64,000 nucleotides of DNA from Arthrobacter sp. 35W (GTDB lineage: Bacteria > Actinomycetota > Actinomycetes > Actinomycetales > Micrococcaceae), in NCBI RefSeq assembly GCF_000482545.1, contig NZ_KI519455.1, forward strand, positions 1,549,247 to 1,613,246, written 5' to 3'. A model generated the notes under the pieces. The model saw nothing but the letters and a program-made list of their open reading frames with translations. It did no database searches and was not told the origin of the DNA. Shown here piece after piece: positions 9,597 through 64,000 of this stretch (its first letter is position 1; each line of letters opens with the position of its first letter). A program made the position numbers and the translations under genes.

Positions 9597-9673
9597 CTAC
9601 CTGCACCGCATAGCGGCAGCAGCGAACACAAAACATGAGATTGCCGCCAATGCCGGCATGGAAGGTGAACAGA

Positions 9674-49207: not shown

Positions 49208-50446
49208 CTATCGCTTTTCGCGGGGCCCGGCGGGGTAGCCGTTGCGGCGGCTGGCGATGGCAACGGCCAGGGCCGCCGCCGCCGGGATGGCAGCGGCGAG
49301 GGGCACCAGCAGGGCGCCGGCGGTGGTCAGCGCGACGGCACCGTAGACGGCCCCGACGGCGATGCCGAGCTGGATGGTGACGACGGTGAGCCCGTTGGCG
49401 GCGTCCCGGTGCTCGCCGCCCGCGCGCAGGATCGCCGCCTGGTTGTAGATGCCCATGGCTCCAAACGCTGCGCCCCACACGGCCATCAGGGCCAGATTGC
49501 CCACCAGCGTGCCGCCCAGCACCGGCAGGAGCACGAAGGCGGCCACCAGGACGGCGACGGCAGCGAGCAGGGAGCGCCGCGGCCAGGAATCGGCGGTGAT
49601 GCCGGCAATCCAGATGCCGACCAGGCCGAACGCTCCGACCACCGACAGCGAGATGCCGGTGGTGGAGCCGGGCAGGCCCGAGGCCGCGATGAAGGGGGCG
49701 ATGTAGGTGAAGAGCGTGAAGTGGGCCAGCAATAGCAGGGGCCAGGCCGTGGCAACGGCGATGACCCCCGGCTGCGCCAGCGCGCCGCGCAGGGACGGGG
49801 CCGCCTTGCCGGCGCTGTGCGGGACGGCGGGCAGGAGGTACGCGGCCAGCAGGGCCAGAAGGCCGGCGACCCCGGCCAGGACCAGGAAGGAGGTGCGCCA
49901 GGACAGTGCCGTGCCCATCATGGTGCCGATGGGGGCGCCGATGGCCATGGCGATGCTGTTGCCGCTGAACACGATCGCCATCCCCTTTCCCACGGAACGG
50001 GCCGGCACGATCCGGGCCACGTAGGGCGCCATCGTGGACCAGAGCAGCCCGTGGGCCACTCCGCCGAGCAGCCGGGCGCCGACGGCGAGGCCCAGGTTCG
50101 GCGCCAGGGCCAGCAGCACATTGCTCAGGGCAAAGGCGAGCACAGTGGCGATCAGCAGGCCCTTGCGGGGGACCCGGCTGGAGAGGAAGCGGGACAGCGG
50201 GAGCGCCGTGACGACGATGACGGCGGCATAGGCCGCGGTCAGTGAGCCGACGGCGGATTCCTCCACGCCCAGGTCATGGCTGATCTGCGGCAGGAGCCCG
50301 GAGGGCAGCAGTTCGGTGGTGACGGCGGTGAAGCCGATGGCCGCCAGGACCAGCAGCCCGGCCCAGGGAATCCGCGCGGGCGTCGGCGTTGATGTGGAGG
50401 TTGGTGGCGGTGCGGGTGCGGCGATGCCGGAGGATTCGTGCGTCAA
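49208..50446 (-). CDS. MFS transporter (DHA1/AraJ-like efflux type)
   Basis: A 412-aa carrier with twelve spans. Near residue 55 is FTAVTTELLPSGLLPQ, typical of the sugar-efflux/drug branch, followed by a loop 2-3 motif SSRVPRKGLLI. TTG 50446 is the start, with AGGAGC six bases upstream; a longer frame to 50542 has no support. It ends the operon, 116 bp after the UPF0303 gene, and may export a sugar product or toxic intermediate. Confidence 0.88.
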   Translation of the reverse strand: MTHESSGIAAPAPPPTSTSTPTPARIPWAGLLVLAAIGFTAVTTELLPSGLLPQISHDLGVEESAVGSLTAAYAAVIVVTALPLSRFLSSRVPRKGLLIATVLAFALSNVLLALAPNLGLAVGARLLGGVAHGLLWSTMAPYVARIVPARSVGKGMAIVFSGNSIAMAIGAPIGTMMGTALSWRTSFLVLAGVAGLLALLAAYLLPAVPHSAGKAAPSLRGALAQPGVIAVATAWPLLLLAHFTLFTYIAPFIAASGLPGSTTGISLSVVGAFGLVGIWIAGITADSWPRRSLLAAVAVLVAAFVLLPVLGGTLVGNLALMAVWGAAFGAMGIYNQAAILRAGGEHRDAANGLTVVTIQLGIAVGAVYGAVALTTAGALLVPLAAAIPAAAALAVAIASRRNGYPAGPREKR

Positions 50447-50562
50447 TCGGTGCTCCTGAAAATCTGGTGGGGGTGTTCTCCGGCGGGCATGGCAGCATCG
50501 GCCGGCGTCGTTGATCCCGGCGTCCATGCCCACGCCAGCCACGCTGCGTATGCCGACGCCAA

Positions 50563-51030
50563 CTATGCGGCCAGGTAGCTCCTGATGGACTGCACCACCA
50601 GTTGGTGGTCCTCATCGGAGGCCAGTCCGGAAACGGTGATGGCACCGACAACGCCTGCCCCCTGCACCCGGATCGGGAAGGAGCCGCCCGCCAAGGTGTA
50701 GTCCGCCGGAGCAAGCCACCCACCCTGTGTCGGGTCGAAGTCCTTGAACTGCTCAGCGAGAAGGGCCGTGCTGTGTTCGAAACGCAGGGTGGTTGCCGAT
50801 TTGCGGCGGATCCATTCCTCCTGGTCGGAGGTGGCCCCCGGCAGCACGCAGCGGAACAGGACAATGTTGTGGCGGCGGATGTCGATCGCTACGCCATGGC
50901 CGCCGGCAATGGCGCGGTTGGCGATGAGCGAACCGAGGCGCCAGGCGTCATGGTTGTCGAAGCTTGGGAAGACCAATTCGTCTTCGTGCTGGCGCAGTTC
51001 GGCGATCCGGGGTGGGGAGGGTTCAGTCAT
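50563..51030 (-). CDS. UPF0303 / GlcG-like (DUF336) family protein
   Basis: A 155-aa protein with the pattern GHGVAIDIRRHN, WIRRKSATTLRFEHST and LAGGSFPIRVQGAGVVGAITVSGL. Relatives of this fold (HbpS, GlcG) bind haem or other small ligands; the job in a sugar operon is unknown. It starts two bases after the upstream dehydrogenase stop. Confidence 0.85.
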   Translation of the reverse strand: MTEPSPPRIAELRQHEDELVFPSFDNHDAWRLGSLIANRAIAGGHGVAIDIRRHNIVLFRCVLPGATSDQEEWIRRKSATTLRFEHSTALLAEQFKDFDPTQGGWLAPADYTLAGGSFPIRVQGAGVVGAITVSGLASDEDHQLVVQSIRSYLAA

Positions 51031-51032
51031 GG

Positions 51033-52058
51033 TCAATGCCCTGCAATGGCGGTGTCGGCAGCGTAGCTGAGCCCGATCTGGCGGCGGATCTCATCCATGG
51101 CGGCCATGATGGCGATGCTCTCGTGCGGTGGGAGGATGGTGCCCGCGGTGGCGCCCTCCCTGACCAGGCGTTCCGTCTCCGCCGCCTGGAACTGCATCCC
51201 TCTGCCGGCAACCGGCTCATCGAACCTCTCCAGGACCGTTCCCTCGGAATTGAAGACGGTGAAGGGCGTCGGGGCGTACCAGGTGGCCTCGATCTCGATC
51301 CACCCGTCCGTCCCGATGACCACGGCCCGGTTGGGCCCTGCGGCATCCAGTTGGCAGTCCAGGATGGCCTGCTGCCCGTTGGCGTAGTCGAAGACCGCCG
51401 CGGTCTGGCGGTCCACACCCGTTGCCGTCATGGCGGCGCTGGCCCGGATGGTGTCCGGAGCACCGAAGATGTCAAAGGCAAAGGAGATGGGGTAGACACC
51501 GAGGTCCAGCAACGCGCCGCCGCCCAACGCGGGATCGTTCAACCGGTGCGCGGGATCCTTGGGGAGGTTCTGGTTGTGGCTGGCCAGCACCTTGCGGACC
51601 TCGCCAATCGTGCCTGCCCCGATGATTTCGCGGAGGCGGATCATATGCGGGAGGAAGCGGCTCCACATGGCCTCCAGAGCCACCAGGCCCTTCGCCTCGG
51701 CAAGCTCAACGATGTCCTGCGCTTCGCGGGCGTTGATGGTGAACGCCTTCTCCACTAGCACGTGCTTGCCGGCATTGAGCGCGAGCAGCGCGTTCTCGTG
51801 GTGGAACGGGTGAGGTGTGGCAATGTACACGACGTCCACGGCCGGGTCCGCAACCAGGGCTTCGTAGCTGCCATGGACGCCGGGAATGCCGTACTTTTCC
51901 CCGAACGCCGTGCTCGATTCAGCGGTGCGCGACCCTACGGCCTGGACCGTGAAACCGCTCTCGATGAGGTCCTGTGTCTGCAGACCGGCAATGAAGCCGG
52001 TGCCGAGGATTCCCCAGCGGAGTCGTCCATCGGAAGTGCCCTTGGGAAGGTTGCTCAC
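51033..52058 (-). CDS. Gfo/Idh/MocA-family dehydrogenase (EKA variant)
   Basis: A 341-aa dehydrogenase. The Rossmann motif is GILGTGFIAG. The family EKP is EKA (HVLVEKAFTINA), as in the dihydrodiol-dehydrogenase-like branch. The substrate side has ALEAMWSRFLPHM and GGGALLDLGVYP. GTG 52058 follows AAAGGA. It is the fourth Gfo/Idh/MocA gene of the operon; the Lys of EK(P/A) is kept, so it should be active. Confidence 0.9.
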   Translation of the reverse strand: MSNLPKGTSDGRLRWGILGTGFIAGLQTQDLIESGFTVQAVGSRTAESSTAFGEKYGIPGVHGSYEALVADPAVDVVYIATPHPFHHENALLALNAGKHVLVEKAFTINAREAQDIVELAEAKGLVALEAMWSRFLPHMIRLREIIGAGTIGEVRKVLASHNQNLPKDPAHRLNDPALGGGALLDLGVYPISFAFDIFGAPDTIRASAAMTATGVDRQTAAVFDYANGQQAILDCQLDAAGPNRAVVIGTDGWIEIEATWYAPTPFTVFNSEGTVLERFDEPVAGRGMQFQAAETERLVREGATAGTILPPHESIAIMAAMDEIRRQIGLSYAADTAIAGH

Positions 52059-52059
52059 G

Positions 52060-52968
52060 TTAGTCCTTTGAAGTTTCGGAATTGCTGAACGGATAGGCAA
52101 CGTAGGCGAACCCGGTGGAATCGGGCGACCAGCTGTTGACGTTGAGGGTACCCTGCCCGCCGAAGAGTGGCCACGTATGCAGCGGTGCGGCCCAGTCGGC
52201 GGTGGAGACCAGCACGACGTCGACAGCCAGATCGGCGGGATGGCCCACCGTGCCGGCCGGGAACCGGATGTAGCTGGCCAACGCTTCGTCGGGGGAGAGA
52301 TGGGGGAACCAGTCGACGGTTCCACTGGAAAGGAGTCGTTCCGCCGGGGCGCCGTTGGAAGTGTGGAGCCTGGCAAGCTGGGCATGGCCCGGCTCCTCGG
52401 TGAAGGCCTCGGTGTTGAAGTACAGCCACTCGCCGTCGGGGGAGTACTCGGGCCCGTCGCAGTGGCCGTCGACATCCAGCCTTGTGGTGGCGCCGCCGCC
52501 GGCCGGAATCGTCATGAGCCTGCCCGGCTGGGTGAAGTTGCCGCCGTCGATTCCAACGTAGGCAAGTTCGCCACCGTCCGGGCTGACGCCGTGGAGGAAA
52601 TGGAAGCTGCCGTCGTCGTCTGTGATGCGGTCGGCCTGGCCACCGCCCAGCGGCGCACGGTAGATGTGGCCGTCGTTCGCCGAGAGGTAGATGTCCCTGC
52701 CATCGGGTGCCAGCACGTGGTCGTTGTTCAGGTCCGGAATGCCGGTGAGGGGGACCTGGACCAATTCGTTTCCGGGAACGGACTCTTCCTCTGGAACAGC
52801 CAGGGTCCACAGCTTCCCATCCCCGTTGAGGATGAGCGAGCCGCCGTCGAGGGTCCAGTTCGGTGCCTCCAGCAGGATCTCATCACTCGCGTAGACCAGT
52901 GTGGATTCCCCGGTGGCGGAGGCGATCCAGACCTCGCAGCGCTGGCCGGGTTGAAGGGTCCGGTTCAT
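52060..52968 (-). CDS. TolB-like beta-propeller protein
   Basis: A 302-aa protein of repeated beta strands with SPDG/APDG turns (LAPDGRDIYLSANDG, VSPDGGELAYVG, YSPDGEWLYFN, WSPDSTGFAYV), a WD40-like/TolB-type propeller. There is no signal peptide, so it acts in the cytoplasm. Its start overlaps the DUF1080 gene end by four bases. A role in binding or hydrolysing a glycoside is possible but unproven. Confidence 0.82.
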   Translation of the reverse strand: MNRTLQPGQRCEVWIASATGESTLVYASDEILLEAPNWTLDGGSLILNGDGKLWTLAVPEEESVPGNELVQVPLTGIPDLNNDHVLAPDGRDIYLSANDGHIYRAPLGGGQADRITDDDGSFHFLHGVSPDGGELAYVGIDGGNFTQPGRLMTIPAGGGATTRLDVDGHCDGPEYSPDGEWLYFNTEAFTEEPGHAQLARLHTSNGAPAERLLSSGTVDWFPHLSPDEALASYIRFPAGTVGHPADLAVDVVLVSTADWAAPLHTWPLFGGQGTLNVNSWSPDSTGFAYVAYPFSNSETSKD

Positions 52969-53858
52969 GTGTGGTCCTCTCCGGAAGCTGATGTGAGATC
53001 TTTGATGCGGATGTTGCGCCATCGGCATTGGGCTCCGACGCCCCAGCGGGCCTCGCCGAAATGGGCGTCGTTGTCGTGCACTTCCAGGGCTATGTGCCCG
53101 CGCTCGCCGAGAACCGCCAAGACGGCGTCGGCGTCGTAATCGGGGGACTGCAGGGCGGCGGTGTCGAGCTCGGCGATCTTGAGCCCGTTGACCCAGGTGG
53201 TGATGACGGGCAGAGGCCCCACGCACCGGATCCGCAGTTCATTCCAGTCGTCCCACCGCCAGACGTCCAGGAAATCGTCGACGTCGGCGGCGTGGGTGAG
53301 CCGGGCACGCTTCTCCTCCGTGACGGGTTCCACAGATGTTGAAGGGTCATCGGCGACGAGCCCGATCGGCTGGCCGCCGGCGTCCCGGGCCACGTCGACG
53401 GCGAACGGAACTGCGGAGAAGCTCGCCAGCCCGTTGCCGAAGAAGCCGCCGATGCCGCCGGAGGGGCGGTGGTCGACCAACACCTGGAAGCCCTCCCAGC
53501 TGTCCCGCTGGCGCCTGACCATCACGCCCGTGTCCGCCGGCCAATCGTGGCGCATGTCCAGCACCAGCTCGAAATCCCCATAGGCCTGCTCGCTGACCAG
53601 GTAGCCGCCGTAGCCGCTGCCGGGCGCATCCTGTTCGCCGATGAGGACGCCGTCGGACACGAACCAGCGCGCAGGGTGCAGCTCGGGCTCAACAGGGCGC
53701 TGAAGGCCCATCGCGTCAAAGTGCTCCAAGACCGAGGGGCCGCCGGGGAAGACGGTCCCGTAGATGCGTGGAACGGCGCGCCAACCGGCCAGGCTGGCGC
53801 CGTCGAACAGCGCAACGAATCCATTTTCGTCCCGGGTGTCGGGAGCTGTTGAGCCCAT
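52965..53858 (-). CDS. DUF1080 protein (3-keto-disaccharide hydrolase family)
   Basis: A 297-aa jelly-roll protein: NGFVALFDGASLAGWRAVP at the start, WFVSDGVLIGEQ, YGDFELVLDMRHDW, DTGVMVRR and, at the end, GHIALEVHDNDAHFG. Members are described as 3-keto-glycoside hydrolases. Here, beside sugar dehydrogenases and TIM-barrel isomerases, hydrolysis of an oxidised glycoside is the natural reading. It has no signal peptide, unlike many relatives in Bacteroidetes, so the reaction would be intracellular. ATG 53858 is the start. Confidence 0.87.
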   Translation of the reverse strand: MGSTAPDTRDENGFVALFDGASLAGWRAVPRIYGTVFPGGPSVLEHFDAMGLQRPVEPELHPARWFVSDGVLIGEQDAPGSGYGGYLVSEQAYGDFELVLDMRHDWPADTGVMVRRQRDSWEGFQVLVDHRPSGGIGGFFGNGLASFSAVPFAVDVARDAGGQPIGLVADDPSTSVEPVTEEKRARLTHAADVDDFLDVWRWDDWNELRIRCVGPLPVITTWVNGLKIAELDTAALQSPDYDADAVLAVLGERGHIALEVHDNDAHFGEARWGVGAQCRWRNIRIKDLTSASGEDHT

Positions 53859-53878
53859 GGGTGGAATTTCCGCTCTGC

Positions 53879-54880
53879 TTAGGCCTGGTTGGAGAAGGCG
53901 GCGTCGAAGGAGGTCTGCGAGGCCGGGAAGTCGAACTTCTTCAGCGCGGCCAGGGCCTCGGGTGCCCCGTGCAGGCGGTCCATGCCGGCGTCCTCCCACT
54001 CGATGGAGATGGGGCCCTCGTAGCCGATGGCCGTCAGGGCACGGAAGGAGGATTCCCAGGGAACATCCCCGCGTCCGGCGGAGACGAAGTCCCAGCCGCG
54101 GCGCGGATCGCCCCAGGGCAGGTGCGAGCCCAGCACGGTGTTGCGGCCGGTCATGCGGACCTTGGTGTCCTTGCAGTCCACGTGGTAGATCCGGTCCTTG
54201 AAGTCCCAGATGAAGGACACCGGATCGATGCCCTGCCACATGAAGTGCGAGGGGTCCCAGTTCAGCCCAAACGCGGGCCGGTGGCCGATGGCCTCCAGCG
54301 TGCGCACGGTGGTCCAGTAGTCGTAGGCGATCTCGGAGGGGTGCACCTCGTGGGCGAAGCGGACCCCGCATTCGTCAAAGACGTCCAGGATCGGGTTCCA
54401 GCGGTCGGCGAAGTCCTGGTAGCCGGCGTCGATCACGGATTCCGGCACGGGCGGGAACATGGCCACGTACTGCCAGATGGAGGAGCCGGTGAAACCGACG
54501 ACGGTGTCCACGCCCAGCTTCTTGGCCAGCCGGGCGGTCAGCTTCATTTCTTCGGCGGCGCGGGTGCGCACGCCCTCGGGGTCGCCGTCGCCCCACACCA
54601 TGGTGCCGACGATCGCCTGGTGGCGGAAGTCGATGGGGGAGTCGCAGACGGCCTGGCCGGTGAGGTGGTTGGAGATGGCCCAGACCTTCAGGCCGTGCTT
54701 TTCCAGCACGGCCAGCTTGGACTCGACGTAGCCGGGCTCGTCCCAGCGCCAGGGGTCCAGGTGGTCCCCGGAGCAGGCAATTTCCAGGCCGTCATAGCCC
54801 CAGCCGGCGGCAAGGGCAGCCACTTCTTCGAAGGGGAGGTCGGCCCACTGGCCGGTGAACAGGGTGTACGGGCGGGGCAT
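53879..54880 (-). CDS. Sugar phosphate isomerase/epimerase-family TIM barrel
   Basis: A 333-aa AP-endonuclease-2-like barrel. Metal ligands are apparent in HEVHPSEIAYD (Glu), GLNWDPSHFMW (Asp, His), HVDCKD and the final SIEWED. The N-terminus YTLFTGQWADLPFEEVA is typical of a group found beside GYAFMG-type dehydrogenases, as here. It may epimerise or eliminate on a 3-keto sugar. ATG 54880 has AAGGA upstream. Confidence 0.9.
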   Translation of the reverse strand: MPRPYTLFTGQWADLPFEEVAALAAGWGYDGLEIACSGDHLDPWRWDEPGYVESKLAVLEKHGLKVWAISNHLTGQAVCDSPIDFRHQAIVGTMVWGDGDPEGVRTRAAEEMKLTARLAKKLGVDTVVGFTGSSIWQYVAMFPPVPESVIDAGYQDFADRWNPILDVFDECGVRFAHEVHPSEIAYDYWTTVRTLEAIGHRPAFGLNWDPSHFMWQGIDPVSFIWDFKDRIYHVDCKDTKVRMTGRNTVLGSHLPWGDPRRGWDFVSAGRGDVPWESSFRALTAIGYEGPISIEWEDAGMDRLHGAPEALAALKKFDFPASQTSFDAAFSNQA

Positions 54881-54890
54881 GGAGAGTTCC

Positions 54891-56081
54891 TTATGAATTG
54901 GTGACGGTGACGACGGCGCTCTTGGCCGCCGCTGATTCTTCGATGCCGGCCAACACGCGCTGGACGGAGAGCCCCTCTTCGAAGGAGGGCGACGGCGGTG
55001 TTCCGGTGGCGATGGCGGACAGGAAATCGTGGGCCTGGTGTGTGAAGGCGTGCTCCCATCCGATGACATGGCCCTGCGGCCACCAGGCGGAGAGGTAGGG
55101 GTGTTCCGGCTCGGTGACCAGAATGCGGGAGAATCCCTGCTCCCGCACCGGCACGGTGCCGTCCAGGAAGTAGAGCTCGTTGGGGTTCTCCAGGTCGAAG
55201 CGCAGGCTGCCGTCCGTGCCGAAGACCTCGATCTCCAGCGCGTTCTTGCGGCCCAGGGCCACACGGGAAACCTCCACGCTGGCCACGGCGCCGCCGGCCA
55301 GCGTCAGCGTCGCCCAGGCGGCGTCGTCGACGGTCACGGGCTCCGGACCGTCCGGGCCGGGGCGTTCGGTGATAAAGGTGTGCAGGCGGCCGGAGACCTC
55401 GGTGACGGTGTCGCCGAGCAGGTACTGGACCTGGTCGACGGCGTGGGAGGCGGTGTCGCCCAGGGCACCGGAGCCGGCGGACTCCTTGCGCAGCCGCCAG
55501 CTCATCGGCGTCGCCTCATCGGCCAGCCAGTCCTGCAGATACGACGCGCGGACCTGCCGGACGGTGCCCAGCCGGCCCTCGGCAATCAGATCCCGGGCCA
55601 GGGTGAGGGCCGGAACGCGGCGGTAGGTGAAGCCCACCATCGACTGGACGCCGCGGGCGCGGGCGGCCTGGGCCGCGGCCACCATGGCCTCGGATTCGCC
55701 GAGGGTGTTGGCCAGCGGCTTTTCCACCAGCACGTGTTTGCCCGCCTCAAGTGCGGCAACGGCGATCTCGGCGTGCAGCCAGCCCGGGGCGCAGATGTCC
55801 ACGATGTCGATGTCATCGCGGGCAATCACATCCCGCCAGTCGGTGGCCGATTCCGCCCAGCCGTATAGCCGGGCGGCCTCGGCCACCTCGTCCGCATTGC
55901 GCCCCACCAGCACCTTCTGCTCAAAGGCCGGGACGTCAAAGAAACTTCCCACATTGCGCCACGCATTGGAGTGCGCCTTGCCCATGAAGGCATAGCCAAT
56001 GGCGGCAATGCCCAACGGGCGGGGTCTGCCGGCGCCGCCGGCGTCGGTCGTGGAGTGGGTGGGGTGTGCTGCGGATTCCAT
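54891..56081 (-). CDS. Gfo/Idh/MocA-family dehydrogenase (GYAFMG type)
   Basis: A 396-aa dehydrogenase. The Rossmann loop is unusual (AAIGYAFMGKAHSNAW, in place of GxGxxG), which marks a subgroup that travels with the isomerase downstream. EKPLA follows, then MVGFTYRRVPAL and ALGDTASHAVDQVQYL for substrate. It starts 9 bp after the preceding dehydrogenase. Confidence 0.91.
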   Translation of the reverse strand: MESAAHPTHSTTDAGGAGRPRPLGIAAIGYAFMGKAHSNAWRNVGSFFDVPAFEQKVLVGRNADEVAEAARLYGWAESATDWRDVIARDDIDIVDICAPGWLHAEIAVAALEAGKHVLVEKPLANTLGESEAMVAAAQAARARGVQSMVGFTYRRVPALTLARDLIAEGRLGTVRQVRASYLQDWLADEATPMSWRLRKESAGSGALGDTASHAVDQVQYLLGDTVTEVSGRLHTFITERPGPDGPEPVTVDDAAWATLTLAGGAVASVEVSRVALGRKNALEIEVFGTDGSLRFDLENPNELYFLDGTVPVREQGFSRILVTEPEHPYLSAWWPQGHVIGWEHAFTHQAHDFLSAIATGTPPSPSFEEGLSVQRVLAGIEESAAAKSAVVTVTNS

Positions 56082-56090
56082 GGATGCGTC

Positions 56091-57212
56091 CTAGAGGGTA
56101 GTGGCCGCCGGATCCCAGTCCTCGGGGAGGGCGGGGGCGACGGTTGCAGTGCTGTCGACGGTGATGAAGGTGCCTGTGTCGATGGATTCGGCGATCGAGA
56201 CCATGGCGTCGAGCACATGGTAGGCCAGCTGGCCCTGTGCCCTGTGCGGGATGCCTGCCCGGATGGAGCGGGCCATGTCCAGCACGCCCATGCCGCGCCC
56301 ATTGGCGGGGCCGGTGGCCGGAACCACGGTCCACTCTTCGTCCCCGGCGCGCCAGAGGCGCAGTTCGCCGTCGAAGTTGTTGGGGTCGGGCAGGGAGATG
56401 GTGGCCTCGGTGCCGGTGATCTCCACAAAGCCCATCTCCAGGCGCGGGGATTCGAAGCTGTAGACGCTGTGCGAGGACGCGCCGGACTCAAACTCGGCGA
56501 TGGCGCTGACATGGGTGGGGACCTCGACGGCGAATTCCTCCCCGGCCTTGGGGCCGGAGCCGACGGTCCGTGTGGCCCGCGACGTTGAGCCGACGGCGGC
56601 CACCCGGGCGATGGGGCCGAAGGACTGGATCAGGGCCGTCAGGTAGTACGGTGCCATATCGAACAGCGGGCCGGCCCCCTTCTGGAAGAGGAACGCGGGG
56701 TTCGGGTGCCACAAATCCGGACCCGGCACCTGGAACACCGTGCGCGCCGTCAGAGGGGTGCCGATGGCCCCGGATTCGATGAGTCGGCGGGCGGTCTGCA
56801 GCCCGGCGCCCAGGAAGGTGTCCGGCGCACAGCCCAACCGGACGCCGGCGGCGTCGGCGGCCTTAAGCAGGCCCAGCCCACTCTCGCGGTCCAGCGAGAA
56901 CGGCTTCTCGCTCCAAACATGCTTGCCGGCGTTGACTGCGGCGGTGGCCACCTCCACGTGGGCGGCGGGGATGGTCAGGTTCACGACGATCTCGACGTCG
57001 GGGTGGTTCAGCGCCAGCTCCGGCGCGCCCCACTCGGGGATGCCGTACTCGGCTGCCCGCGCGGCCGCGGCGTCCTCGAAGAGGTCCGCGATGACGTGGA
57101 CCTTCAGGTCCGGGAAGGTGGTGAGGTTGTCCAGGTACTGCTTGGAGATGTTTCCGGCGCCGATGACGGCGACGCCGACCGGGCCGCGGCCCGTGCCCGC
57201 AGCGGCGCTCAT
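56091..57212 (-). CDS. Gfo/Idh/MocA-family dehydrogenase
   Basis: A 373-aa dehydrogenase with VIGAGNISKQYLDNL, SEKPFSLD and CAPDTFLGAGLQTAR. It is clearly similar to the gene at 8469-9596, suggesting related substrates in the two loci. Its ATG overlaps the stop of the isomerase (ATGA), so this pair is coupled. Confidence 0.91.
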   Translation of the reverse strand: MSAAAGTGRGPVGVAVIGAGNISKQYLDNLTTFPDLKVHVIADLFEDAAAARAAEYGIPEWGAPELALNHPDVEIVVNLTIPAAHVEVATAAVNAGKHVWSEKPFSLDRESGLGLLKAADAAGVRLGCAPDTFLGAGLQTARRLIESGAIGTPLTARTVFQVPGPDLWHPNPAFLFQKGAGPLFDMAPYYLTALIQSFGPIARVAAVGSTSRATRTVGSGPKAGEEFAVEVPTHVSAIAEFESGASSHSVYSFESPRLEMGFVEITGTEATISLPDPNNFDGELRLWRAGDEEWTVVPATGPANGRGMGVLDMARSIRAGIPHRAQGQLAYHVLDAMVSIAESIDTGTFITVDSTATVAPALPEDWDPAATTL

Positions 57213-57961
57213 GCCTGGACTCCGGCGGTTGCGTCGGCACCCTGCAGGTAGGCCAGGCTGGCGGCGATGCCCTCGAAGATGTCCCCGGCGTAGTCGTCGA
57301 ACTCCACCACACCGACCTCCAGAGAGGTGGCGGCGGCAATGACGTCGAAGACCGGGATGCTGCCCTCGCCGGCCGGCAGCTGGGCCTTGGTGTCGGTGTT
57401 GATGGGGCCGTCCTTGATGTGGATGAACTTCACGCGGTCGCCCAGCCGCGCCAGCAGCTCCACGGGATTCTGGCCGCCGACGGCTGCCCAGTAGGTGTCA
57501 ACCTCCAGAACCAGTTCCGGGTCCAGCAGGGACTCGAAGTACTCCAGTGCCGTGGTTCCCTCGATAGTGGACTCGAGCTCCCAGGCGTGGTTGTGGTAGC
57601 CGACGCGGATGCCGTACTCGGCGCCCTTCTTGGCGGCGGCGTTGAGCTTCGCGGCGGTGGCGGCGATGTCCTCGGCGTTCTGCCAGTGCTCAGCCGGCAG
57701 GTACGGGTCGATCACGGTGCTGATGCCCAGCGACTTGGCCGCGGCAAAGATTTCATCCTGGTCCGCGCTCAGCAGGGGTGCATGGCCCGAGGGCGCGGTC
57801 AGGCCGTTTTCCTTCAGGGCGGCGCCCAATTCCGTGGCGGTGGCGACGAAGTTGTAGGGCTCAACCTGCGTAAAGCCGATTTCGGCGACCTTGGCGATGG
57901 TGCCGGGAAGATCCTCCGAGATGGCGTTGCGGAGGGTGTACAACTGGATGGAATACGTCAT
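57209..57961 (-). CDS. Sugar phosphate isomerase/epimerase-family TIM barrel
   Basis: A 250-aa barrel, shorter than the other one. Metal residues are in RVGYHNHAWEL, LEVDTYWA, IHIKDGP and GVVEFDDY. The family includes keto-sugar epimerases such as E. coli YcjR and the lyase subunits acting on 3-keto-glycosides. The ATG at 57961 has AAGGAG upstream. An 81-bp gap to the permease could hold an internal promoter. Confidence 0.91.
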   Translation of the reverse strand: MTYSIQLYTLRNAISEDLPGTIAKVAEIGFTQVEPYNFVATATELGAALKENGLTAPSGHAPLLSADQDEIFAAAKSLGISTVIDPYLPAEHWQNAEDIAATAAKLNAAAKKGAEYGIRVGYHNHAWELESTIEGTTALEYFESLLDPELVLEVDTYWAAVGGQNPVELLARLGDRVKFIHIKDGPINTDTKAQLPAGEGSIPVFDVIAAATSLEVGVVEFDDYAGDIFEGIAASLAYLQGADATAGVQA

Positions 57962-58042
57962 GGGTTTTCTCCTTTGAATGCCATTTGAAAATAGATAGCG
58001 AAGTGGAATGTGGGGTTGTTGAAAATTGTGTAATGGGCCGCC

Positions 58043-58948
58043 TCAGCGGCCGGCGAGGGATCCGCCGATGCCGCCGACACTGAAGTACTTGTTCAACGTG
58101 GCGAAGACGATGATCGGCGGGAGCATCATGACCACGGCCAGGGCCATGACTGACGTCCAGTCTGTCTGGTTCTGCTGGAAGAAGGACTGCACCCCCATCG
58201 GAAGGGTGAAGATTTCCGAGGACCGCAGGAACACGATGGCCACGAGGTAGTCGTTCCAGGCCAGCAGGAAGGCGAAGATCGCGGTGGAGAGGATGCCAGG
58301 CAGCGAGTTGCGCAGCACCACCTTGGTGAAGCTGCCAAAGACGGAGCAGCCATCGATCCAGGAGGCCTCCTCGAGGCTGATCGGGATGGAATCGAAGTAG
58401 GCGGCCATCATCCAAGTGGCGACCGTCATGGTCGAGCCGACGTAGATGATGGTCAGGCCCATGAGGTTGTCCACCAGGCCCAGGCCGGCGAACAGGATGA
58501 ACAGCGGCACCACCGAGGTGATGATGGGCAGCGACTGCATCACGAACAACAGCAGCGAGTAGCCGGAGACCGCCTTGCTGCGCCCGCGGGAGAGGACATA
58601 GCCGGCCGGTGCCGCCACGGCGACGGAGACCACCACCGTGCTGAGCGTGGTGATGAGGCTGTTCGACAGCCAGGTGGAGGCGAGCGTCTGGGAGAAGACG
58701 TTGCCGAAGTTCTCAAAGGTGAAGCCCGTGGCCGTACTGGTGGGGCTGGGGGAGAAAGCAAGGACGACGGTGACCATGATAGGCACCAGTACGACGGCGG
58801 TGATGGCCAGGATCAGGGTGAACCGCCACCAGCGGCCGCGCATGCCGGCGTCAGAGAGGACTCGTTTGGACTTGCCGGTTCCCTTGGTGGTGCCGGAGGC
58901 GCCGAGCGCGGAGCGGGACTGTGGCTGGGTGTGGACTGCTGCACTCAT
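58043..58948 (-). CDS. Carbohydrate ABC transporter permease (MalG type)
   Basis: A 301-aa permease with six spans and EAA loop EEASWIDGCSVFGSFTKVVL. The N-terminal 25 residues are polar and basic. It overlaps the upstream permease by one base. No ATPase gene is in the operon. Confidence 0.95.
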   Translation of the reverse strand: MSAAVHTQPQSRSALGASGTTKGTGKSKRVLSDAGMRGRWWRFTLILAITAVVLVPIMVTVVLAFSPSPTSTATGFTFENFGNVFSQTLASTWLSNSLITTLSTVVVSVAVAAPAGYVLSRGRSKAVSGYSLLLFVMQSLPIITSVVPLFILFAGLGLVDNLMGLTIIYVGSTMTVATWMMAAYFDSIPISLEEASWIDGCSVFGSFTKVVLRNSLPGILSTAIFAFLLAWNDYLVAIVFLRSSEIFTLPMGVQSFFQQNQTDWTSVMALAVVMMLPPIIVFATLNKYFSVGGIGGSLAGR

Positions 58949-59910
58949 TATTCGACGCTCGACTTTCGGATCTGGCGGTACAGGAGGACCGACACCACCA
59001 CGAGGGTGATCGTCATGAGGAAGGCGATCGCAACGCCCGGTCCGGTCTGGAAGTCCTGGAAGACGGTCCGGTAGGCCAGCACCACGAGGGACGTAGTGGC
59101 ATCCACGGGTCCGCCACCGGTGAGCAGGTAGATGGTGGGGAAGTCGTTGACGCAGAAGATCGTCATGAGGATCCAGCTGATGTAGGTGGACCGGGCGGTC
59201 AGCGGCAGCGTGATCTGGCTGAACTGCTGCCAGCGGCTCGCGCCGTCCATGCTGGCGGCCTCGTAGACGGTGCCGTCCACCGAGGCCAGGGCCGCGGACG
59301 TCATCATCATCATGAACGGGAAGCTGACCCAGACCTTGAACACCATGACGGTGATGGCTGCAAGGGTCGGGTCCGCCAGGAAGAGCGGCGTGCCCAGACC
59401 CAGGTTCCGGAACATGGCGGGGATGAGGCTGTCAGGGGTGCCCACCAGCCAATTCCATGCGGTGGAGGACACCACGATCGGCACCACCCAGGGCAGCAGC
59501 AACAGGACCTTGAAGAGCCCGCCGGCGGGAATCTTGGTGCGCAGCAGCAGGGCCAGACCAAGACCAACGGCCCAGGATCCAAAGACGCCGACGATGGTGA
59601 ACAGCAGCGTGAAGCGGGCCGCCTTCCAGAAGGCCTCGGAGGCGACGACGGAGGCGAAGTTGTCCACCCCGACGAAGTTCCCGGTCTCGATGAGGGAACC
59701 GTCATGGGTGGCCTGGACGCCGGCGTAGATGAGCGGGTAGCCGTTGATCAGGATGAGCAGGACGATCGAGGGCAGCAGGAGCCAGAAAAACGTTCGCCGG
59801 GTCTGTGCACTGAGTTTGCTCTTGCGGTTGGGCGCCCCGCCCCCGGGCCCGCCGGGGGCAAGCCCCTGGCGGGCCCGGGCGAGGCCGGACTTCGTAGTGG
59901 TGGTTGACAT
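58948..59910 (-). CDS. Carbohydrate ABC transporter permease (MalF type)
   Basis: A 320-aa permease. Six spans follow a basic cytoplasmic N-terminus; the EAA loop is YEAASMDGASRWQQFSQITLP. It lies 12 bp after the binding-protein gene. Confidence 0.95.
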   Translation of the reverse strand: MSTTTTKSGLARARQGLAPGGPGGGAPNRKSKLSAQTRRTFFWLLLPSIVLLILINGYPLIYAGVQATHDGSLIETGNFVGVDNFASVVASEAFWKAARFTLLFTIVGVFGSWAVGLGLALLLRTKIPAGGLFKVLLLLPWVVPIVVSSTAWNWLVGTPDSLIPAMFRNLGLGTPLFLADPTLAAITVMVFKVWVSFPFMMMMTSAALASVDGTVYEAASMDGASRWQQFSQITLPLTARSTYISWILMTIFCVNDFPTIYLLTGGGPVDATTSLVVLAYRTVFQDFQTGPGVAIAFLMTITLVVVSVLLYRQIRKSSVE

Positions 59911-59922
59911 GGGTCCTCCGGC

Positions 59923-61239
59923 CTACTTCTTGATGGTGGATTCGAGGCCGGTTTTGAACGCCTGCAGGGCGGACTTGGCATCGGTCTTGCCGGTGAGGAT
60001 GGTCTGGGTGAACTGGTTGATGGCCTGGCCGCCGTCGAGCACCGCGAGCCCGGCATTGAGCGTGCTGCCCTGGGCCGCAAAGTTCTTGGAGATGGGCTGC
60101 CATTCCTTGACGATCTTCACGTTGTTGGGATCGGAGGCGAACTCGGGAAGTTCGGTGATGGACTTGAAGACCGGGAGGGAGGTCACCAGCTTCTGCTGCC
60201 ACAGGTCCTTCAACTTGCCCAGGTAGTCGACGAGGAAGGCCTCGGATGATTCCTGCGACGGGGTGTTCTTGTACATCATGATGTTGTTCGGGAACATGAT
60301 CGAGGCCTTGTCCCCGTGCGGACCGGTGAGGGGATCGGCGACGAGCAGCTCGCCGGTCGTGTCGCCGATGCGCCCCGGGAGGCCGGCGGTGAACATGCCG
60401 TAGCCCGCCTTGCTGTCCTTCCACTGCGCGTTCAAATTGTCGGAGGTGTAGCTCACCGCCGCGGGGTCGATGATGCCGTTGGACACCAGTTCGAGCAGGA
60501 ATTCGACGGCCTCAACGTTGCGGTCGTTCATCACGTCGAGTTCACCGTCCTTGTTGAACACGCCGCCACCGTTGTTGACCATCATCATGATGGACGCGTG
60601 GTTGCCCAGGAAGTTGCCTGCACCCGCGCCGATCGCAAAGCCGACGGCGCCGATGTTCTTCAGTGCCTTGCCGGCCTCCAGCAGCGAGGGCCAGTCGGTC
60701 GGCACTGCGACGCCGGCCTTCTCAAAGAGCGAGGAGCGGTACCACATCACACGCATGTCCAGCTGCCACGGGATCGCCACGTAGCCCTTGTCCGTCTTGA
60801 ACGGTTCCAGAACGCCCGGCAGGAAATCGTCGTACATGCCGTTCGACTTTAAGGCTTCGACAACCTTGTCGGCGTAGGCGATCTGGCCCTGCTGCTCGAA
60901 CTGGAAGGCCTGGAATCCACCGCCGGTGCTGACGGCCGGGCCGGTCTTGGAGGCGATGGCCGAGGAGAACGTTTGGTAGAAGTTGTTCCACTGGATGGTC
61001 TGGTAGCTGGCCTTGAGGTTGCTGCCAGTGGGCACGTAGGCGTCAACGATCTTCTTGGCGGCGTCGTTGTAGGCCGGTGCGGCCCAGGGCATGTCCCAGA
61101 ACTTGACGGTGCCGCCGGAGTTGGCGGTTGAACTGCCACCGCCGCAGGCGGCCAGCAGGGGAACGGTGGCGGCCGCGGCAGCCAGTCCGAGGAAACCGCG
61201 CCGGGAGAAACCGGCGGTGGTGGAAAGGGGAGAGGTCAT
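59923..61239 (-). CDS. Extracellular sugar-binding lipoprotein
   Basis: The 438-aa binding protein of this importer. It has a twin-arginine-like FSRRGFLGLAA and lipobox LAAC, so it should be exported folded and lipid-anchored. The mature part is a type-1 sugar-binding fold (VAIPWQLDMRVMWYRSSLFEKAGV, AGYGMFTAGLPG). The start ATG 61239 follows AAAGGAATT. The ligand is probably a glycoside or oligosaccharide, judged only from context. Confidence 0.94.
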   Translation of the reverse strand: MTSPLSTTAGFSRRGFLGLAAAAATVPLLAACGGGSSTANSGGTVKFWDMPWAAPAYNDAAKKIVDAYVPTGSNLKASYQTIQWNNFYQTFSSAIASKTGPAVSTGGGFQAFQFEQQGQIAYADKVVEALKSNGMYDDFLPGVLEPFKTDKGYVAIPWQLDMRVMWYRSSLFEKAGVAVPTDWPSLLEAGKALKNIGAVGFAIGAGAGNFLGNHASIMMMVNNGGGVFNKDGELDVMNDRNVEAVEFLLELVSNGIIDPAAVSYTSDNLNAQWKDSKAGYGMFTAGLPGRIGDTTGELLVADPLTGPHGDKASIMFPNNIMMYKNTPSQESSEAFLVDYLGKLKDLWQQKLVTSLPVFKSITELPEFASDPNNVKIVKEWQPISKNFAAQGSTLNAGLAVLDGGQAINQFTQTILTGKTDAKSALQAFKTGLESTIKK

Positions 61240-61359
61240 TGCAATTCCTTTCAGGAACCGGCCGGTGCACGGGGCACCGGGCCGGTGTCTAGCTCGACAG
61301 TGAGTTATGGAACCAAAGCGCAGAACAACTAGAGATGCAGTACTTCGTGGGTGGAGCTG

Positions 61360-62160
61360 TCAGTGCCGGCGGAACCGGACGAGTGTGGAGGAGAGATGGT
61401 CGAAACCGGGCAGATCCGGAGTCTGGGCCGAGGCAGCCACAGCGCCGGTGAGGCGGCGCCAGCTGGTGCGGTGGGCCGATTCAAAGATGGTCGGCAGCGT
61501 GGTGGCGCCGGACGGGGTGGTCACAGTGGTCTCGGCAGGACGCGCCGTGTCCGGATCGGGGACGGAGATCCTGACGCCGCCGTCGGCCGTCAGCAGGTCC
61601 AGACGGACGCCTCCCGGCAGTGCCCGGGTGAGGATGCCCTGAAGCGCAACGGGCGCCCCGTTGGGCAGCCGGCCGGCCGCGGTGTAGCCGCGGGGGCCGC
61701 TGGAGATGATGTGCAGGTCCTGGACGCCGCCGGCAATGCGGAAGACCAGGGCCAGATGTTCGCCCAGCAGCAGTTCCGGATCGGTGTGCGGCGCGGCGGC
61801 GGCGGCGGAGTCCAGCAGGGCTGCCCCGCCGGCCAGCTCGAGCACCGCTGCAGCGGCGCCGTCCACTGCGGCGTTGGATGCCCAGCGGTGGTCAAGAACC
61901 ACCGGGACGCCGGCGGATTCCGCGGCGGCGGCGAGGACAGCTGTGTCTTCGGCGGCCGGCTCGACAACCACCAGGCCCCGGGCTCCGCCGGCGATGGCGG
62001 CCAGGGCCTCGGCGGTCCAGCCGGGCTTCCCGGAGATGGCGCGGATGTCGGCGTCGGCGCCGCCCGGGCCCAGGGAGACGGGCAGGGAGGCGAGAACGGA
62101 GCCGACGGCGCCGGCAGCCTCCGCCGCGGGGCTGGCGTGGGCGCTCAATTGCGGGCTCAT
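61360..62160 (-). CDS. Shortened Gfo/Idh/MocA-like protein without the nucleotide-binding start
   Basis: A 266-aa Ala-rich protein. A segment LVVVEPAAEDTAVL followed by GVPVVLDHR resembles the post-EKP part of Gfo/Idh/MocA proteins, and GGVRISVPDPD resembles their C-terminal sheet. GxGxxG and the catalytic EKP are missing. It overlaps the upstream full dehydrogenase by ATGA and may be its non-catalytic partner. This assignment is tentative; base composition is like the neighbours, so it is not obviously decaying. Confidence 0.7.
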   Translation of the reverse strand: MSPQLSAHASPAAEAAGAVGSVLASLPVSLGPGGADADIRAISGKPGWTAEALAAIAGGARGLVVVEPAAEDTAVLAAAAESAGVPVVLDHRWASNAAVDGAAAAVLELAGGAALLDSAAAAAPHTDPELLLGEHLALVFRIAGGVQDLHIISSGPRGYTAAGRLPNGAPVALQGILTRALPGGVRLDLLTADGGVRISVPDPDTARPAETTVTTPSGATTLPTIFESAHRTSWRRLTGAVAASAQTPDLPGFDHLSSTLVRFRRH

Positions 62161-63239
62161 GCGGGCACCTTCTCGGCGAGTGCTGCGGCAGCCGTTGCCG
62201 CGGCGGCGGTTCCGTCAGCGATGTCCAGGGCAAAGGTCAGGTCGTTGATCAGAGTTTCGGCCGAGGGGGCCGTTCCCGTGCCGTTGGCCAGCTCGGCCAG
62301 CTTTCGCCACTCGCCCTCGTAGCCGTTGTGGCCGTAGGGGCCGTACGTGGTGGTGGTGCCGTTGCGGGTGATCCGGGCGGTGGCCGATCCGGCCTGGACA
62401 TAGGAGGGGCTGAACTCGATGTGCAGGGCGGCGTCGTAGCCGATGGCCTCGAAGGTCCACTCGGGCTGCCACGTCGCCGTCATCGCGGCCCGCAGTTCAA
62501 TGCTGCGGCCGCCGGCCTTCAGGGAGATGACGTAGCCGAAGGGCTGGACGATCTCCGCGTGCAGGACCTCGACGTCCTCGAAGGCGGGCAGGAACCGGCG
62601 CACCAGTGGAAGGTCGTGGATGGCCAGGCCCATCACGCCGCCGCGCAGCATCCCCTTGACCACCTCAAGGTCCGAGTAGTCGGGGGACCCGGCGGCCGGG
62701 CGGGTGAGGATCTCGGTGGCGAAGTCCTCGAACCGGCTGTTCGGCGGGAGGACGATGGAGGACCTGATGGTGTGCGCGGTGGCGGGCAGATCGCCCCAGG
62801 CGCTCTCTGCGGCGAGCCAGCCCGGGTCAAAGGTGTGCATGGCGCCCACGAGAATCGGCACGCCTGTCTTCGCGGACACCTTGGCAATCCGGGTGGCTTC
62901 CGAGGCGTCCATGGCGAACGGCTTTTCGCACAGGACGGCCTTCTTGCCTGCCAGGCAGCTGGCGATCACCTGCTCGGCATGGAACTGGTGCGGGCTGCAG
63001 ATGGCAATCACGTCGACGCCGGGGTCGGCCAGCAGGGCGTCCATGCTGGAGGAGGAGGCGGCGCCCACGCGGGCTGCCACGGACTTGGCGACGTCGGGAT
63101 CAACGTCCATGATGTGGCGGACTTCAAGGAGTCCGCTGAGCCGGGCGAGTGCCGGCAGGTGGATGGCCTGTGTGACAGGACCGGCGCCGAGAATGCCTAC
63201 GCCCAAGGGCTTGGCTGGCGGCAAGTAATTGTTGGTCAA
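62157..63239 (-). CDS. Gfo/Idh/MocA-family dehydrogenase, first gene of the large operon
   Basis: A dehydrogenase of about 360 aa. It has GVGILGAGPVTQAIHLPAL, LCEKPFAMDA, and MGLAIHDLPLVRRFL on the substrate side. I prefer TTG 63239 with AGAAGAGG upstream; the ATG at 63260 would add seven residues encoded by that same ribosome site. Its promoter is at 63318-63346, facing away from the ROK gene. Confidence 0.88.
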   Translation of the reverse strand: MTNNYLPPAKPLGVGILGAGPVTQAIHLPALARLSGLLEVRHIMDVDPDVAKSVAARVGAASSSSMDALLADPGVDVIAICSPHQFHAEQVIASCLAGKKAVLCEKPFAMDASEATRIAKVSAKTGVPILVGAMHTFDPGWLAAESAWGDLPATAHTIRSSIVLPPNSRFEDFATEILTRPAAGSPDYSDLEVVKGMLRGGVMGLAIHDLPLVRRFLPAFEDVEVLHAEIVQPFGYVISLKAGGRSIELRAAMTATWQPEWTFEAIGYDAALHIEFSPSYVQAGSATARITRNGTTTTYGPYGHNGYEGEWRKLAELANGTGTAPSAETLINDLTFALDIADGTAAAATAAAALAEKVPA

Positions 63240-63317
63240 CGTGCAACTACCTCTTCTCATCGTTGAGCGCTTCTCGGCCGGAGGGGGATTCGGAGGAGGT
63301 GATACGGCTCACAACTC

Positions 63318-63346
63318 AACGTAGTGACACTTATGACGAACGTCAA
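63318..63346 (-). promoter_or_regulatory. Promoter of the large sugar operon with possible ROK operator
   Basis: On the minus strand, TTGACG (63346-63341) and TACGTT (63323-63318) are exactly 17 bp apart. TGACGAACGTCA (63334-63345), with 5-bp arms, overlaps the -35 box and spacer and is a good candidate for ROK repressor binding. Confidence 0.6.
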
Positions 63347-63419
63347 GCAAAAGTTGAAAGAAGCTCGACAACCTTTTTCTGGCGTGACACGCATAACCAT
63401 TCGTGCTATCACTGGATGC

Positions 63420-64000
63420 ATGACCCAAGGCACCGGACATGGAACCTCCTCACAGGACACCACTGGCACTTTTGCCCGCGCCGGAGAACTGTTCCAGCTG
63501 CTGCGCGATGGCAAGGCCCGGACCCGGGCGGAGCTGGCCCTGAACACCGGGCTGGCCCGGTCAACGGTGGCGGCGCGGATCGACTCCCTGATGCTCTCGG
63601 GGCTGGTGGGTCCGGCCGGCGAGGCCACCTCCAGCGGCGGCCGTCCGCCGTCGAGGTTTGCCTTCAACCCCGCCGCACGGGTGGTTCTGGCCGTCGACAT
63701 TGGCGCCACCCACCTCAGCGTTGCCCTGACGGACCTCAACGGCACGGTGCTGGGCCAGCGGGGGGTGCCGCAGGAGGTTGCAGCGGGGCCGGAGGTGGTG
63801 CTGCGCCGGGTGGTGGAGCAGGGCCAGGAACTGCTGGCCGACAGCGGCCGCGACCCTGGCGATCTTGCCGGCATCGGCATCGGCGTCCCCGGGCCCGTGG
63901 AACACGCCACGGGGACCCCGGTCAAGCCCCCGATCATGCCCGGCTGGGACGGCTACAACGTGGTCGCGTACATGCAGCGCTGGCAGCATGTCCCCGTCCT
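63420..64000 (+). CDS. ROK-family transcriptional regulator (3' truncated by window edge)
   Basis: The visible 193 codons run off the right edge. Residues about 18-75 form a winged helix-turn-helix (TRAELALNTGLARSTVAARIDSL), followed by SGGRPPSRFAFN and the ROK kinase-like fold, with DIGATHLSVALTD as the phosphate loop and GIGVPGPVE. NagC/XylR-type ROK proteins repress sugar operons and release DNA on binding a sugar. Being divergent from the 14-gene operon, it is the natural local regulator. The ATG at 63420 has no clear ribosome site. Confidence 0.9.
   Translation, partial: MTQGTGHGTSSQDTTGTFARAGELFQLLRDGKARTRAELALNTGLARSTVAARIDSLMLSGLVGPAGEATSSGGRPPSRFAFNPAARVVLAVDIGATHLSVALTDLNGTVLGQRGVPQEVAAGPEVVLRRVVEQGQELLADSGRDPGDLAGIGIGVPGPVEHATGTPVKPPIMPGWDGYNVVAYMQRWQHVPV

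Follow-up and report, generated by a model that had tools for sequence, protein, structure and literature searches.

A ROK-flanked operon of Arthrobacter sp. 35W with candidate genes for two routes of 3-keto sugar conjugate cleavage

Which pathway is served by an operon that places four Gfo/Idh/MocA dehydrogenases beside a sugar importer, two sugar isomerase-type barrels, a DUF1080 protein and a beta-propeller? The question is raised by a 64,000-nucleotide stretch of the Arthrobacter sp. 35W genome (contig NZ_KI519455.1, positions 1,549,247 to 1,613,246; hereafter the window), in which a first-pass annotation, made from the letters alone, had noticed a leftward run of fourteen genes and proposed that imported glycosides are oxidised at C3, cleaved and re-shaped inside the cell by a pathway unlike those known. 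The observation is sound and its broad interpretation is likely right, and the pathway class is of a known kind. Indeed, 14 open reading frames (ORFs), here numbered g1 to g14, all lie on the minus strand at 49208–63260 with intergenic distances of –4 to +120 bp. Profile searches recovered PF01408 in g1, g7, g8 and g12, confirming four full Gfo/Idh/MocA dehydrogenases, as well as PF01261 in the two barrels g6 and g9, PF06439 (DUF1080) in g10 and PF03928 (UPF0303) in g13, while g2 and g11 matched no Pfam family at E 0.001. The importer was recovered as a binding protein and two permeases, with no ATPase gene within the 14. The host genome (4.66 Mb, 99.99% complete) holds 27 PF01408 matches and one PF06439 match, namely g10.

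Judging from sequence comparison, we consider it likely that g1–g13 represent a ROK-controlled catabolic operon offering two cleavage routes for a 3-keto sugar conjugate. The ATP-binding cassette (ABC) importer g3–g5, together with an ATPase encoded elsewhere, would bring in a glycoside or a related sugar conjugate, which a Gfo/Idh dehydrogenase would oxidise at C3, with g8 and the g1/g2 pair as candidates. On the first route, TIM1 (g6) would perform a beta-elimination and TIM2 (g9) would hydrate the resulting glycal; on the second, the DUF1080 protein g10 would hydrolyse the 3-keto compound. Reduction of the 3-keto sugar by g7 or g12 would regenerate NAD. Furthermore, g1 and the degenerate g2 would together make up a two-subunit enzyme, and g11 would be a further enzyme acting on a keto-sugar intermediate.

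The comparison of gene order suggested by the first-pass annotation was carried out by a scan with g10 of one genome per species (84,980 species). It returned 15 loci (L009–L023), among which operons holding DUF1080 are over-represented owing to the query; additional loci came from a DUF1080 search of the family (L004), propeller searches (L028, L049) and a g2 search (L045). Six other genomes (L009, L011, L013, L014, L021, L023), among them that of Arthrobacter oryzae DSM 25586 (L011), carry g1–g13 in the same order and strand, which excludes a chance grouping; within these six, g13 of L021 matches over 50 of 157 residues only and g10 of L023 is damaged. L010 has g1–g11 plus an extra barrel, without g12 and g13, and L018 has g1–g11 and g13, without g12 and with many genes frameshifted. 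Three contigs start inside g9 (L012, L017, L022): L012 runs on with g10–g13, L017 lacks g12, and g13 of L022 is fragmented. Relatives of g10 were also found in other settings in Microbacteriaceae (L015), Kineosporia (L016), Rubellimicrobium (L019) and Curtobacterium (L020), the last one situated downstream of both ABC permease genes and an ORF read by eye as a GH1-like beta-glucosidase. In sampled genomes g10 is rare, occurring in two of 149 of the family (the own genome and a remnant) and in one of 394 of the class (the own genome). The major facilitator superfamily (MFS) exporter assigned to the operon is present as an MFS_1 protein, g14, and synteny places it outside the conserved unit, which reduces the fourteen-gene operon to g1–g13. 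No g14 match was found in L009–L023 at E 1e-10 and none in 15 Arthrobacter-type loci at ≥40% identity; at E 1e-3, the sole match among the loci searched was the MFS gene of a Parabacteroides locus (L032). A different, MFS-looking ORF follows g13 in L017 (by eye).

The same loci revealed that the operon is built of separable modules. TIM1-GfoB-GfoC-TIM2 (g6–g9) occur together in 13 of 13 Arthrobacter-type loci showing that stretch (window, L004, L009, L010, L011, L013, L014, L018, L021, L023, L028, L045, L049), and GfoB adjoins TIM1 in every one of them. L028 has an additional TIM1-GfoB pair without GfoC and TIM2, and in the Kineosporia locus TIM2 and a g8-like gene (37%) are present, whereas TIM1 and GfoB are missing. 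Neither g1–g5 homologues at this position nor g10 were present in L028 and L049, the latter also lacking g13; L004 is without g12 and g13, and L045 has g1–g9 without g10–g13 in the stretch covered. Altogether, g10 is absent or damaged in seven of 16 Arthrobacter-type loci. It is absent in three (L028, L045, L049) and damaged in four, as a remnant in L004, by a frameshift in L017, by N-terminal loss and a stop in L022 and by an out-of-frame stretch in L023, sequencing error being possible in L017 and L023. Eight loci have it intact (window, L009, L010, L011, L012, L013, L014, L021), and L018 was left unjudged. The repeated loss of g10 beside an untouched g6–g9 core suggests that the main route would run via elimination/hydration and that g10 hydrolysis would be an accessory.

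This modularity could also mean that several independent pathways share one promoter, namely the g6–g9 keto-sugar core, a g1/g2-importer-DUF1080 module and a propeller-GfoD-HbpS module. Such a view would fit the core without g1–g5 or DUF1080 in L028 and L049, g1–g9 without g10–g13 in L045, the losses of DUF1080, and Ti plasmids on which a DUF1080-Gfo-propeller-HbpS block stands without the core (see below). We nevertheless regard it as unlikely in light of the full order in six other genomes, the start/stop overlaps in the window and the one shared control site, which suggests one inducer. A split into unrelated transcripts, the outcome that the first-pass annotation had named as speaking against its own proposal, is likewise disfavoured by the conserved gene order, despite the separable modules.

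The control site consists of the palindrome ACTTTTG-N12-CAWAAGT, present 5′ of g1 in 10 of 10 loci (window, L009, L010, L011, L013, L014, L018, L021, L023, L045); outside these ten, the upstream stretch of the Kineosporia locus had no such palindrome by eye. A –35-like TTGAC is kept in eight of the ten, with TTGCC or TTGCT in L010 and L018, and is followed by TANNTT in all ten. The claim of one good promoter thus received a mixed answer: a generic sigma-70 scan listed none there, and TTGACG-17-TACGTT lies in the conserved stretch. The ROK gene announced next to the operon is present and divergent; its start (ATG 63420) was picked by eye, the longest ORF beginning at 63324. Its product would bind the palindrome, which is a single site in the genome at ≤3 mismatches (reversed-pattern control: 0). 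With this one site, the operator search yielded no further regulon genes, and a wider regulon was rejected. A second near-palindrome lies at 63381–63412 (GTGATAGCACG ... GTGTCACGCC), near the ROK start, with similar letters in several relatives (by eye), and is possibly an autoregulatory site. Just 5′ of the g3 ribosome-binding site, a GC-rich hairpin can be drawn at 61240–61359 in the window and several relatives. It was rejected as a conserved RNA element on the consensus fold of nine sequences, in which the covariation term was unfavourable (+1.26 kcal/mol); three of 10 predicted pairs showed a double change, and several pairs were broken in one to three of the nine sequences.

With regard to the chemistry, an oxidation-elimination-hydration-reduction pathway has been published for levoglucosan (PMC7676230; PMC10066097), and for O- and C-glycosides the published steps are C3 oxidation, a beta-elimination that yields 2-hydroxy-3-keto-glucal, hydration and reduction (PMC10628242). 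DUF1080/PF06439 proteins have been linked to the hydrolysis of 3-ketotrehalose, a 3-keto-disaccharide, and proposed, via fitness data, for 3′-ketolactose hydrolysis (PMC9007349). The claim that the pathway is unlike known ones is hence not supported. By family assignment, the operon appears to hold genes for elimination as well as for hydrolysis, and import, C3 oxidation, two kinds of cleavage and reduction inside the cell are supported as far as homology goes, with g8, g9 and g10 matching families that have characterised 3-keto-sugar members. The protein g9 matched 8ro4, deposited as 2-hydroxy-3-keto-glucal hydratase, near full-length (residues 20–328, E 1e-36), with the barrel segments E-x-HP, DPSHF, KD and EWE in common. 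It also matched 2zds ('putative DNA-binding protein') with E 1e-168, and its identity among loci is 89–95% (L018 set aside). In g6, the motifs HNHA, D-YWA and HIKD are shared with 8tcs/8tcd (E about 6e-21). The g10 protein covers the full PF06439 profile (1–187 of 187) with 80.8 bits against a gathering score of 26.8; solved relatives match weakly. For g8, only 4h3v, an 'oxidoreductase domain protein', ranked above levoglucosan dehydrogenase 6a3f (E 4e-84). The NCBIfam equivalogs of BT_2158 and BT_2159, glycoside/disaccharide 3-dehydrogenases, were far from reached, with 47 of 750 and 25 of 650 bits as the highest scores. An assignment of the substrate from the binding protein g3 was rejected on weak NCBIfam matches (41 of 400 bits).

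Gfo/Idh enzymes paired with PF01261 barrels could alternatively resemble IolG and IolE and serve the catabolism or epimerisation of free sugars or inositol, with no glycosidic bond being cleaved. Relatives of g7 (its best match) and g8 have been solved as scyllo-inositol dehydrogenase with L-glucose dehydrogenase activity, and IolE and IolG profiles match weakly. The scores, however, stay far below the cut-offs of the inositol models (70–112 of 355 bits for IolG, TIGR04380; 41–48 of 290 bits for IolE, TIGR04379), and the match of g9 to 8ro4 together with PF06439 points to keto-glycal and keto-glycoside chemistry. We thus rejected inositol catabolism, disfavouring dehydrogenases that act on inositols, the other outcome named beforehand, and consider this explanation improbable. 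Very improbable is an operon for the anhydrosugar levoglucosan, built like LgdA-LgdB1-LgdB2-LgdC and enlarged by additional genes. In its favour, levoglucosan dehydrogenase is the nearest relative of g8 among solved enzymes whose activity is named, PF01261 barrels stand beside the dehydrogenase as in the LgdA pathway (g6 and g9 flank g7-g8), and the surroundings of lgdA are known to include further PF01261 barrels, ABC genes and ROK regulators (PMC10066097). Against it, g8 scored 327 bits with the levoglucosan dehydrogenase model NF052479 (cut-off 650) and the best gene of the genome, outside the operon, 363, whereas the LgdAs of Paenarthrobacter share 96.7 and 97.9% identity with the enzyme of Sphe3 (PMC10066097), and the published scheme has no place for DUF1080, the propeller or g2. 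That best-scoring gene belongs to a second cluster of the genome (L008, G000:C2:1022000-1036000) with permeases, the g8-like (51%) gene in question and a g7-like (44%) gene.

Within the 3-keto-sugar operon that we favour, g1 and g2 form a peculiar pair. The dehydrogenase g1 keeps the GxGxxG, EKP and HD motifs, with K100, H202 and D203 invariant in 11 alignment rows; its best match in the Protein Data Bank (PDB) is DgpA, in the N-terminal (cofactor) domain only. The short relative described by the first-pass annotation is g2, which overlaps g1 by 4 bp. Alignment to g1 by hhalign (probability 94.7, E 6e-8) starts at g1 residue 69, past GxGxxG. An AlphaFold2 model built with nine orthologues reached a predicted local distance difference test (pLDDT) of 87 and a predicted template modelling (TM) score of 0.83, two of the five models being far poorer (72 and 59). 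The best 50 Foldseek rows were of the Gfo/Idh/MocA type, as judged by title and family, with E down to 1e-10 and TM up to 0.78. Accordingly, we rejected g2 as a new domain and took stray Pfam matches of g2 and an orthologue (E 0.01–0.35) as chance. The protein has no GxGxxG cofactor motif, the EKP lysine is missing in nine of nine g2 rows, and g2 is the least conserved gene, with 42–53% identity among loci, although it keeps one invariant segment, E-S-x-H-R-x-x-W-x-R. In class samples including the own genome, g1 (E 1e-30) occurred in six of 384 genomes and g2 (1e-6) in five of 394; these counts and that of the propeller below are lower bounds, since few candidates per genome were scored. In all five g2-bearing genomes g1 lies directly upstream, and the sixth g1 genome (G315) has a g2-like ORF right after g1 (48 bits by local hmmsearch) that the class search had missed, so that g2 adjoins g1 in six of six. 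In Kineosporia, g10 is framed by two copies of g1, and a g2-like stretch comes after each copy, the one after the second copy matching weakly (30% over 194 residues); in Novosphingobium, g1-g2 lie close to g10. Strict pairing and lost catalytic motifs suggest that g2 could be a non-catalytic subunit of a two-subunit dehydrogenase with g1.

The propeller g11 matched PDB 2ojh by sequence (E 8e-40), and the structure prediction that had been proposed for it (pLDDT 90) returned 2ojh as the best fold match (TM 0.83, 34% identity), followed by TolB proteins. Its description as a cytoplasmic propeller thus stands for the fold; a cytoplasmic location is suggested by the lack of a signal peptide, as judged by eye. 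Oligogalacturonate lyase 3c5m appeared at rank 21 of the fold matches, and an assignment to PL22 was rejected, with no profile match among Pfam hits at E ≤ 1 and similarity in fold only. Nine residues (E33, N80, N81, H83, H125, D170, W219, H222, H242; numbering starts after Met) are invariant in 27 of 27 relatives, and D82 is kept in 26, the relatives being 36–77% identical and many of them closely related. From their places in the sequence, we infer that these residues line one pocket, and g11 may be catalytic. Relatives were found in 28 plasmid records and six of 296 class genomes; they span Actinomycetes, Alphaproteobacteria and Bacteroidota and carry the annotation 'TolB' or 'biopolymer transporter Tol'. 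Both Agrobacterium Ti plasmids examined, pTiCFBP4996 (L024) and pTiAF3.44 (L025), carry in this order LacI, a binding protein, two permeases, UgpC, DUF1080, Gfo/Idh, propeller and HbpS-like genes; among the other DUF1080-bearing plasmids, only L029 was examined. With its own importer, this block possibly serves to break down a conjugate that is opine-like or comes from plants. By way of speculation, it hints that the DUF1080-propeller module may deal with plant-derived sugar conjugates. Further settings of the propeller comprised GH3, HbpS-like and Gfo/Idh genes (L031), Gfo/Idh and ThuA (L027), a divergent ThuA (L030), VOC, a barrel and an enolase-type gene (L033), and a g12-like gene (L050).

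Several observations weigh against the proposed pathway. PF01408 and PF01261 are broad families, g8 remains far under its curated equivalog cut-off, and the roles given to the four dehydrogenases are guesses. The closest solved relative of g1 matches the cofactor domain only, and in L048 the g1-g2 pair sits among genes unlike sugar catabolism (by eye), so that g1/g2 need not act on sugars. The conserved residues of g11 could form a binding site only, and propeller relatives occur away from keto-sugar genes in Streptomyces (L026), Parabacteroides (L032) and L051–L053; the association with keto-sugar genes is frequent, not universal. A more specific form of our reading is offered as tentative and rather doubtful. 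It would combine two new protein types, an obligate two-subunit g1/g2 dehydrogenase, in which g2 completes or gates the g1 site, with a cytoplasmic 2ojh-family propeller enzyme, both working on 3-keto sugars; the invariant E, N, D and four His of g11, possibly metal-binding, would serve a lyase, epimerase or hydratase step on keto-sugar intermediates, and the operon would hold two parallel cleavage routes, one of them repeatedly lost. Among the papers listed by literature searches (titles and abstract starts, mostly without subscription journals), neither this operon nor a two-subunit Gfo/Idh enzyme was described and no paper gave a function for 2ojh, all being weak negatives.

Table 1 Features of the operon and its control region (window coordinates)
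Feature	Position	Strand	Evidence or remark
g1 GfoA, Gfo/Idh/MocA dehydrogenase, divergent C-terminal domain	62157..63260	-	PF01408 E 2e-21
g2 degenerate, probably non-catalytic Gfo/Idh relative	61360..62160	-	hhalign to g1, Foldseek
g3 sugar ABC substrate-binding protein	59923..61239	-	PF01547 (SBP_bac_1) E 2e-20
g4 ABC permease	58948..59910	-	PF00528 (BPD_transp_1)
g5 ABC permease	58043..58948	-	PF00528 (BPD_transp_1)
g6 TIM1, PF01261 barrel, candidate 3-keto-glycoside lyase/hydratase	57209..57961	-	PDB 8tcs/8tcd
g7 GfoB dehydrogenase	56091..57212	-	PF22725, PF01408
g8 GfoC, levoglucosan-dehydrogenase-like	54891..56081	-	6a3f E 4e-84
g9 TIM2, PF01261 barrel, candidate 2-hydroxy-3-keto-glycal hydratase	53879..54880	-	8ro4, 2zds
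g10 PF06439 (DUF1080), 3-keto-disaccharide-hydrolase type, exceeds profile length	52965..53858	-	
g11 beta-propeller, conserved putative active site	52060..52968	-	2ojh by sequence and fold
g12 GfoD, dihydrodiol-dehydrogenase-like	51033..52058	-	PDB 2o48 E 6e-51; GTG 52058 picked by eye
g13 HbpS/GlcG-like (UPF0303) protein	50563..51036	-	PF03928 E 2e-28
g14 MFS transporter, adjacent, probably outside conserved unit	49208..50542	-	PF07690 (MFS_1)
Divergent ROK-family regulator	63420..64000, continues past window edge	+	PF00480 E 1e-7, winged helix-turn-helix
Probable ROK operator, inverted repeat ACTTTTG-N12-CAWAAGT	63329-63354	-	
–35-like TTGACG, 17 bp, –10-like TACGTT	63318-63346	-	overlaps probable operator; whole site 63318..63354

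Outside the operon, two more PF01408 matches lie in the window at 8490–10045 on the plus strand, and homology to the 14 proteins revealed two further Gfo/Idh gene clusters elsewhere in the genome (L006, L007). The study of redox-assisted glycoside cleavage is young, and many members of its gene clusters have no role assigned. Easily grown soil actinobacteria in which this operon is conserved, with one control site, provide a genetic handle on a g2-type partner and a 2ojh-type propeller. The parts most deserving attention are g2 and g11; furthermore, sister strains in which DUF1080 is damaged or absent allow a test, by strain comparison, of how hydrolysis and elimination share the work.

Among known systems, the operon resembles the levoglucosan pathway LgdA-LgdB1-LgdB2-LgdC of Bacillus smithii and Paenarthrobacter in its Gfo/Idh enzymes and PF01261 barrels, ABC importer, nearby ROK gene and predicted oxidation-elimination-hydration-reduction logic, but has no LgdA over the cut-off and adds g1/g2, DUF1080, the propeller and an HbpS-like protein. 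It is related to human-gut redox ('non-Koshland') glycosidase modules through the match of g6 to 8tcs/8tcd, which we take to stem from that work; to our knowledge, these modules contain no propeller and no g2-like protein. C-glycoside eliminases of the DgpBC/CarBC type have a second, small-subunit gene beside the barrel, and no such small-subunit domain appeared in the Pfam results of the 14 proteins (Pfam only, without a reference sequence). With BT2157/DUF1080 3-keto-disaccharide hydrolases (PMC9007349), the operon shares a g10 protein over the PF06439 gathering score, whereas its dehydrogenases are far below the BT_2158/BT_2159 cut-offs and close g10 relatives are rare. DgpA, the puerarin 3-dehydrogenase (7xr9), is the best solved relative of g1, which differs by its C-terminal domain and its partner g2. 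DgpA has been discussed for Arthrobacter sulfosugar clusters (PMC8873060); the clusters described in passages of that paper are other ones, and a sulfosugar link was set aside. The four-enzyme glycoside pathway of Agrobacterium with AtOGE and AtHYD (PMC10628242; 8ro4) is approached by g9 as a near full-length homologue of the hydratase. Like this pathway, the operon offers a pair of barrels together with a Gfo enzyme that would carry out the reduction. Unlike it, the Pfam results of the 14 proteins include no counterpart of GlycDH, the first enzyme, which is presumably GMC-type. Agrobacterium also provides 2ojh (Atu1656, 'putative TolB'), whose fold is the one adopted by the g11 model.

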